Source of the DNA: Taxawa tesnikishii (nom. ined.)
Taxonomy: Eukaryota > Ascomycota > Dothideomycetes > Dothideales
Reading direction: 5' to 3'
Length of the DNA stretch: 64,000 nt
Assembly (NCBI GenBank): GCA_030247885.1
Contig: JAPDRO010000002.1
Coordinates: 434,001 to 498,000, forward strand
Shown: positions 6,334 through 10,985 of the stretch, in pieces
Position numbering within the stretch: the first letter of the stretch is position 1
Layout of the letters: every line of letters begins with the position of its first letter
Translations under genes and position numbers: made by a program
Notes under the pieces: generated by a model
Seen by the model: only the letters and a program-made list of their open reading frames with translations
Databases searched by the model: none
Told to the model about the DNA's origin: nothing

Positions 6334-9582
<3,249 letters not shown>

Positions 9583-10019: not shown

Positions 10020-10055
10020 TGCAGCTTGCCCGGATCGAACGGGCGACCTTCAGAT

Positions 10056-10077
10056 ATCGGAACTGAAGTTTGATCTT
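10056..10077 (-). other. Canonical tRNA-Phe intron
   Basis: A 22-nt insert between positions 37 and 38 of the tRNA. It carries the sequence CTTCAG, which pairs with the anticodon-loop CTGAAG. This position and pairing are those recognised by the tRNA splicing endonuclease. Confidence 0.85.
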
Positions 10078-10090
10078 CTTCAGTCTGACG

Positions 10091-10143
10091 CTGCTTGATT
10101 GTTAGAATTTGATTCATCGAGAGTTGTTGGAATAGATGCTTAC
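10091..10143 (-). other. Spliceosomal-intron-like insert inside the tRNA D stem
   Basis: 53 nt, beginning GTAAGC, with a perfect fungal branch site TTCTAAC and ending AAGCAG. Length and signals match the protein-gene introns elsewhere in this window (46-69 nt). Precise removal restores the GAGC strand of the D stem. It interrupts the tRNA where eukaryotic tRNA introns normally do not occur. Confidence 0.85.
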
Positions 10144-10167
10144 CTCTCCCAACTGAGCTAAAGCTGC

Positions 10168-10985
10168 CATGCTCCGCTCTCTCGCAACTCGTGAGTCGAG
10201 CCGTCGTCTGAGCGTCGTCGTTGGTGAGAAAATTCAAGTACCCTCAACCTGCACGTCTGAGAGTTCCTGGATCTGGTCGCGTGCTCCCGCAGATATATAC
10301 AGGCGTAATCTTGTCGATCTTAAGGGCATAACACGGGAGTGTAGCAGGTATAGCAGAGCGAGCATCGTGATTCACGTTTAAGAAGTTGATTAGAGGCAGT
10401 AATAAGACGAACAACTATCTAAGCAACGCTCCCAAGACAAACGGCACAATGTCTACAAGCCAAAGATAACAATGGGAGACCCGCGCACGAGAACAAAGGA
10501 CGCAAACAGTCCTCTTCTTGTCGCTCCAATGGCCTGTACTCTGTGCCTTCTCTCCTCTCCTACCACCCGTTCGCTGTCTTCGTACAACAGAAAAAAGGAC
10601 ATCTACACTGCTTTATATCCACCCGTCTCCCTCTCTCGTTCGTTCTGTCTTCTCTGTACTTCGCGGTTGGTATCCCCTCCCTCCGGTGATGATGTCTCAA
10701 AAGCAGATTGCCCGAGACGGGTATTTGCTGGTATGTGAAACGAGTGAATACAGGTCGGTAAAAGTGTGTCCACATATAGGCGTATCAGCGCCTGAGCCTG
10801 CGGTGGGAGCATGTGGGTTCGGTTTATGCATACACGCATAGAATGAAGGCCTGAATGGTGTGCAGGTAAACACTTTGTCTCGGGTCGGATTAATAATGAG
10901 TTGGTGGGTTTGCGCTGTCGCTTCGACCATGTCGATGCGCAGCCTAGAGGCGTGCTAGACATCTGCCCATGGTCTTACGAAAGCC
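10168..10985. other. Spacer between tRNA-Phe and the end of SSD1
   Basis: About 800 bases with no supportable gene; short open frames only. The part nearest SSD1 is its probable 3' untranslated region. Confidence 0.4.

Follow-up and report, generated by a model that had tools for sequence, protein, structure and literature searches.

Candidate spliceosomal introns in intact nuclear tRNA genes of the fungus Taxawa tesnikishii

The window analyzed here, a stretch of 64,000 nt from Taxawa tesnikishii (nom. ined.; Dothideomycetes, Dothideales; contig JAPDRO010000002.1, positions 434,001 to 498,000), contains a tRNA-Phe(GAA) gene at 10020-10167 on the minus strand. This gene is labeled W throughout, and L and C numbers denote loci and contigs of the assembly (G000). 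W sits in a 1.4-kb intergenic space between two neighbors with stops near 9582 (+ strand) and near 10975 (- strand), which from their translations we take to be aspartate aminotransferase-like and SSD1-like, respectively. The parts of W and its flanks are given below, where L002-L005 are the other nuclear tRNA-Phe copies.

10168 to 10247, minus strand: the 80 nt upstream of W, which by AT content lack the AT-rich stretch near -30 common to most other tRNA genes
10144 to 10167, minus strand: 5' exon of the tRNA-Phe, positions 1-24, with box A (about 10149-10160); its 24 nt are identical to the 5' end of L002, L003, and L004
10091 to 10143, minus strand: GT-AG insert of 53 nt that splits the D stem between positions 24 and 25 and carries GTAAGC (5' splice site), TTCTAAC (branch site), and a terminal CAG; absent from three of the five paralogous copies, with motifs and length that match the protein-gene, U6, and other tRNA inserts of the genome
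10078 to 10090, minus strand: middle exon, positions 25-37, with anticodon GAA and an anticodon stem of 5/5 pairs
10056 to 10077, minus strand: anticodon-loop intron of 22 nt, with CTTCAG complementary to the anticodon-loop CTGAAG; assigned by position, alignment with L002-L005, and fold
10020 to 10055, minus strand: 3' exon, positions 38-73, with box B (about 10031-10041), identical to L002
10015 to 10019, minus strand: run of five Ts resembling a pol III terminator, read from the sequence

Removal of both inserts leaves a cloverleaf in which all 21 pairs are standard, and the minimum-energy fold of the insert-free sequence is that cloverleaf (-27.7 kcal/mol). The D-stem exon junction reads GGGAGAG followed by CGTCAGACTG, with a one-base ambiguity (G) in the placement of the insert, and the anticodon-loop intron sequence, AAGATCAAAC, occurs in W only among the five Phe copies. 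The coordinates given to the 53-nt insert and the 22-nt intron in the initial annotation proved exact to the base, and its description of a complete tRNA-Phe(GAA) with intact boxes A and B and a T5 terminator holds, with box letters the same as those of L002 and the five Ts at 10019-10015. No tRNA was reported from the whole window by ARAGORN under default settings or by an Rfam scan at gathering thresholds; with long introns allowed, ARAGORN called W a tRNA-Leu(AAG) with a 55-nt intron. Within the intergenic space around W, the Rfam scan returned a chance U6atac fragment and nothing else, and the flanks of W had no likeness above shuffles to those of the other Phe copies. A coding reading of the tRNA body at W was unconvincing, as its 36-codon frame is commonplace by chance and the corresponding frame of L005 is unconserved beyond the tRNA body. 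A decayed 5S gene beside W was considered as a clock and dropped, the likeness being weak (E 0.046 in 2.5 kb, equaled by 5 of 300 shuffles with one of the three 5S queries). Five of 38 surveyed tRNA genes (L002, L003, L005, C23:1655192, and C34:778513) have a 5S rRNA gene or relic no more than about 430 nt away, where ~0.1 such genes would be expected by chance.

The D-stem insert of W has 53 nt, begins GTAAGC, carries CTAAC with the branch A 11 nt from its end, and closes with CAG. A reference for protein introns was obtained with a frame-based caller on 197 kb of nuclear sequence, which gave 14 strong introns compared to one in a reversed control. These introns are 47-75 nt long, 11 nt is the commonest distance of the branch A from the 3' end (5/14), and their 5' splice sites include GTAAGT (four introns) and GTAAGC (two). 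The likeness to protein-gene introns proposed in the initial annotation is thus borne out for length, 5' site, and branch spacing. Among 400,000 random 53-mers from the 197 kb, a pool that includes the W insert itself, a loose intron test was passed by four and a strict one by a single sequence. Three of the five tRNA-Phe copies are without the 53 nt, which identifies them as an insertion in W, and a whole-genome DNA search with W produced matches elsewhere only outside the insert. When held against the criteria for tRNA endonuclease introns, the insert is at 24/25 and not at 37/38. An archaeal-type bulge-helix-bulge is absent at the D-stem junction (one or two of four central pairs), which by itself says little, as the canonical intron of W falls short in the same test (0-2 of four).

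Three DNA searches combined recovered five nuclear tRNA-Phe copies, W and L002-L005 (the search with L005 did not return L002). No D-stem insert is present in L002, L003, or L004, while L005 (L005:1424-1570, C9:291116 onward) has a 55-nt GT-AG D-stem insert of its own between 22 and 23. L005 is decayed, with 17 of 21 pairs, a G at T-loop position 58, and no T run. Among the five copies, W and L004 alone have all 21 pairs and a full anticodon stem; the anticodon stems of L002 and L003 have mismatches at 28-42 and 29-41. Pairing of at least four of the five anticodon-stem positions was found in 20 of 20 other class I genes examined, compared to three in L002, L003, and L005. Positions 27-31 of L002 and L003 read TACGA, where TCAGA or TTAGA would pair, and the boxes and T run of both genes look good.

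The region upstream of W is unlike that of most tRNA genes. Between -45 and -15, W has both the lowest AT content (0.37) and the lowest best AT 8-mer (4/8) of the 38 tRNA genes; between -80 and -15, its AT content (0.46, equal to the window mean) is the lowest jointly with L005 and its best AT 8-mer (7/8 at -70) is not low among the 38, all for windows that were chosen after inspection of the data. Given its lack of an AT-rich upstream stretch and the decay of L005, the one other Phe copy with an interruption of this kind, W is less certainly used, and the chances that this particular copy may be in use appear evenly balanced. A different upstream pattern was seen for tRNA-Asp, where the upstream regions of all five genes seen (L052, L058, L100, L114, and L129) share a stretch within the final 30 nt in which CCAAG precedes a GTT or GTGT motif, together with an AT-rich box around -55.

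W is not alone. The 38-gene survey of nuclear tRNA genes demanded an unbroken D loop, and the interrupted genes in it are W and L005 only. That such genes are rare, as these two among 38 had suggested, was rejected when others came to light among box-B sites that lacked a called gene yet had both T stem and T run. A box-B pattern (GGTTCGANTCC) occurs at 90 places, of which 84 were read and the remaining six are on organelle-like contigs. The 84 places hold 31 tRNA genes, composed of 24 from the 38-gene survey, three further uninterrupted genes (L078, L110, and L115), and four that are interrupted; thus 4/31 genes of this sample are interrupted, by five inserts in all. W, L005, and L151 were found by targeted searches outside the box-B sample. 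Counting all nuclear tRNA genes seen (the 38, the three uninterrupted, the four interrupted, and L151), 7/46 are interrupted and five of the seven are intact, where the 46 are a partial sample and not a census (63 of 926 candidates scored). Of the 38 surveyed genes, 34 exceed 76 nt in length, a count that takes in class II genes and the two with D inserts, and many of the 38 seem to carry an anticodon-loop intron. The four interrupted genes of the box-B sample, with anticodons assigned by reading the sequence, are as follows.

C29 near 63000: L104/L150, tRNA-Arg(CCT), with a 54-nt insert after nucleotide 16, in the D loop
C29 near 198900: L105/L153, tRNA-Leu(CAG), with a 53-nt insert after nucleotide 15, likewise in the D loop
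C31 near 667300: L117, tRNA-Leu(CAA), with a 53-nt insert after nucleotide 15 in the D loop, a GC-AG intron reading GCAAGA..CTGAC..CAG
C31 near 785500: L118/L152, tRNA-Leu(TAA), with 55 nt after nucleotide 12 (D arm), 56 nt in the variable arm, and an anticodon-loop intron

The organelle-like contigs present a separate observation. The organelle-like tRNA genes form two sets that differ from each other, one on C25 and the other on C26/C28; C25, of 80 kb, holds the same tRNAs in direct and inverted repeats, and C26 and C28 are near-duplicates by tRNA positions. The two sets are possibly the result of misassembly or of a second organism.

The six inserts in the five intact genes (W, L104, L105, L117, and L118) are uniform in kind. 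All six are 53-56 nt long with a YTRAY branch A 10-13 nt from the 3' end, and the five outside W begin GTAAGT, GTAAGC, GCAAGA, GTGAGT, and GTAAGT. TTTT is absent from all six, which is no special sign because it is likewise absent from all 14 protein introns. The exons of the Leu genes are almost unchanged from those of insert-free paralogues: once the inserts are taken out, the exon sequences of L105 and L118 are identical to those of L101 and L066, respectively, L117 departs from L065 at a single variable-arm position, and the remaining differences are confined to anticodon-loop introns. The upstream AT content (-45 to -15) of L104 (0.80), L105 (0.57), L117 (0.70), and L118 (0.63) is within the range of ordinary tRNA genes, and L104 carries TATATTTTT near -34.

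Interrupted genes can also be recovered by a scan in which one or two GT/GC-AG inserts are taken out and the remainder must have complete acceptor and T stems as well as a D arm and a T run. Applied to 109 stretches (232 kb), the scan found 36 uninterrupted genes and four interrupted genes (W, L104, L105, and L118) in four stretches, compared to none of either kind in the reversed sequences of the same 232 kb; L117 was not part of this set, and L005 fails the scan for want of a T run. The Rfam tRNA model gave 19-21 bits or nothing on four interrupted genes (cut-off 29) versus 40-54 bits on three uninterrupted genes. The genome was also searched twice, without gaps and with up to three mismatches, for a D arm that continues into GTAAG; these searches, which by design cannot detect D-loop cases, gave W only (one match in the reversed-pattern control) and nothing, respectively. 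A further locus, L147/L149 (C11:419830), has a tRNA 3' half with a full T stem and a T6 run, and no fully pairing 5' acceptor within 700 nt. It is possibly a gene with longer or multiple inserts, or a relic.

The Arg(CCT) gene has a special place among the interrupted genes. A whole-genome DNA search with L104 returned two matches, L104 itself and L151 (C12:566178). The L104 insert is flanked by GCGCAAT before and GGTAGCGCG after; L151 has an insert ending CAG ahead of GGTAGCGCG, at the D-loop site that L104 and L151 have in common, and a second insert in the T loop that ends TTCTAAC..CCAG. L151 is decayed, with a degraded 5' acceptor and degraded 5' splice sites. Neither of the two places matched in this search is an insert-free Arg(CCT) copy and, if that holds for the genome, the tRNA-Arg(CCT) of the cell depends on removal of the L104 insert. 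A tRNA-Arg(CCT) may be replaceable by a tRNA with the TCT anticodon, and AGG is possibly read by another tRNA-Arg.

The same kind of intron is found in the strong U6 genes of this genome. The Rfam U6 model has three places over its cut-off, each matching positions 1-66 only.

C19:390845, C23:1835706, and C33:874318: the strong U6 genes L069, L070, and L071, each with an mRNA-type intron of 51-56 nt after about model position 66

In all three, the intron starts GTAAGCA and ends CAG, and is followed by the rest of U6 and a T run. Three weaker matches fall under the cut-off and the one that was read (C13) is diverged and without such an intron. With no strong U6 copy free of the intron, the spliceosome must remove it, and U6 is made by pol III. 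No intron-sized gap was found in the SRP RNA gene (one place, 121 bits to the fungal SRP model) or in U3 (two places).

The tRNA inserts have no common source that could be demonstrated. The inserts of W and L005 resemble each other no better than shuffled versions in which the splice signals are preserved (z 0.5), and among 36 pairs of nine inserts and U6 introns, a clear likeness occurs only between the two U6 introns (z 6.9); three further pairs reach z 2.1-2.4, one of them W with a U6 intron. A common origin of the tRNA inserts was accordingly set aside, the W insert being like the others only in its splice signals. The closest relative of W is L002 and that of L005 is L003, a relationship that favors separate gains of the two inserts, while loss or gene conversion would also be possible.

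The inserts are very probably spliceosomal introns by origin, judging by their signals, and we are fairly confident that at least some of the interrupted tRNA genes would be spliced by the spliceosome. In the proposed pathway, pol III would transcribe the interrupted gene from the internal A and B boxes, the spliceosome would take out the D-arm or variable-arm intron, as it must with the introns of U6 in this genome, removal of the anticodon-loop intron would fall to the tRNA endonuclease, and the end product would be a normal tRNA. From the observed insertions, signals, intact tRNA bodies, insert-free paralogues, and U6 precedent, we infer transcription by pol III, removal by the spliceosome, and the order of the steps as the best explanation. 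It is therefore considered likely that working nuclear tRNA genes of several isotypes contain introns that the spliceosome may remove, and that the W insert is one of this set. Insert-free copies exist as well for Phe and for each of the three Leu types, whose interrupted copies could be recent and dispensable.

The initial annotation had offered three options for W: a pol III transcript processed by the spliceosome, an endonuclease that accepts a new site, or a silent copy that drifts slowly. The spliceosomal character of the insert is well supported and gains much from the similar inserts found elsewhere among the tRNA genes and in each of the three strong U6 genes, whereas an endonuclease accepting a new site is unsupported, in a test that is weak. 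A silent copy is possible for W with its unlike upstream region but no longer accounts for the phenomenon overall. Extended to the whole set, introns would occasionally land in tRNA genes and the interrupted copies would be dead or nearly dead without having decayed yet. This is unlikely as a general account, and for W itself it is the stronger rival. The decay of the interrupted L005 and L151 fits such a process, as does the AT content upstream of W, the lowest of the 38 genes over the shorter interval and jointly lowest with L005 over the longer one, though by best AT 8-mer in -80 to -15 W is not low. Beyond W, silence would have to be reconciled with five intact interrupted genes that cover three amino acids and five anticodons, with the perfect body of L118 despite two inserts, with the ordinary AT-rich upstream region and T run of four of the five intact genes, with the strong splice signals retained by the inserts, and with the whole-genome L104 search that found no uninterrupted Arg(CCT) gene.

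The remaining explanations have far less in their favor. The loci could be exons of pol II transcripts and the inserts the ordinary introns of those transcripts, as W lies about 800 nt downstream of the SSD1-like gene on the same strand, L005 is also downstream of a same-strand protein gene, and the frame joined over the W insert stays open over 57 codons, or 36 when counted from an ATG. But chance often gives a frame of 36 codons, conservation of the L005 frame stops at the tRNA body, and the other interrupted genes resemble ordinary tRNA genes in their T runs and upstream AT richness, which makes this reading improbable. It is very improbable that the inserts are introns of the tRNA endonuclease in atypical positions, of the sort seen in red algae, nucleomorphs, and Crenarchaeota. 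The accessible portions of PMC4090602 and PMC3978253 do describe archaeal introns at 20/21, 22/23, and 25/26 and D-arm introns in tRNAs of the Guillardia nucleomorph and Cyanidioschyzon (in Guillardia, many lack a defined bulge-helix-bulge), but for the genes analyzed here the GT/GC..YTRAY..AG arrangement with near-constant spacing in 6/6 inserts would have to be a coincidence. The poor central helix at the W junction (one or two of four pairs) also speaks against an endonuclease intron, weakly, as the canonical intron of W scores 0-2 of four. An assembly artefact is scarcely credible for seven loci with unlike inserts and splice signals.

Introns of the mRNA type in non-coding RNA genes have precedents, and among those closest to the proposed spliceosomal introns of tRNA genes are the ones in U6. 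Such introns were reportedly described in U6 snRNA genes of fungi by Tani and Ohshima in 1989 and by Canzler et al. in 2016. The fungal U6 introns and the inserts described here are both short GT-AG introns with a branch site in genes with pol III signals, and 3/3 strong U6 genes of this genome have one; the hosts here differ in being tRNA genes of several isotypes, which have a splicing machinery of their own and often a second, canonical intron. Spliceosomal introns also occur in fungal U3 snoRNA genes, and the available part of PMC5832005 describes copies with and without the intron in one species. There too, the gene is a non-coding RNA gene with ordinary splice signals, and the small shifts in U3 intron position among Dothideomycetes in that part of the source resemble the 24/25 of W versus the 22/23 of L005; the RNA is a different one, however, and both U3 places here match the model without an intron-sized gap. 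The available part of PMC2586383 notes spliceosomal introns in non-coding RNA genes, with rDNA and U2 cited.

Among tRNA introns, the canonical fungal kind (37/38) is represented in W by the 22-nt intron, from which the 53-nt insert differs in position and in kind. Crenarchaeota, nucleomorphs, and Cyanidioschyzon have D-arm or other inserts besides the anticodon-loop intron, but the portions seen of PMC4090602 and PMC3978253 assign these to the tRNA endonuclease (removal of the shortest is unknown), whereas the inserts here have spliceosomal signals. According to the same portion of PMC4090602, eukaryotic D-arm or T-arm insertions usually affect a single copy out of many and are regarded as pseudogenes, except in nucleomorphs and a red alga, where they are attributed to the endonuclease. 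The part consulted of PMC8450103 allows eukaryotic tRNA genes no more than one intron, a limit that the three introns predicted for L118 would exceed. In a literature search, with subscription papers and preprints mostly outside its coverage, no spliceosomal intron in a tRNA gene was named among the matches listed, and the available parts of PMC13130702 and PMC11782384 contain nothing on spliceosomal introns in tRNA genes.

The interrupted genes score below the cut-off of the standard tRNA model, which exposes a blind spot. New introns appear to have landed repeatedly in pol III genes, a pattern relevant to the origin of introns, and the interrupted genes offer a natural test of the action of the spliceosome on short, uncapped, folded pol III transcripts. 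If the inserts are spliced, the reach of the spliceosome would extend from U6 to tRNA, and eukaryotic tRNAs would be produced by two unrelated splicing systems. On balance, the genomic evidence favors a fungus in which the spliceosome would be a regular part of tRNA making, where Arg(CCT), three Leu types, and Phe would need both the spliceosome and the endonuclease, one gene would have three introns of two kinds, and the supply of Arg(CCT) would depend on splicing.
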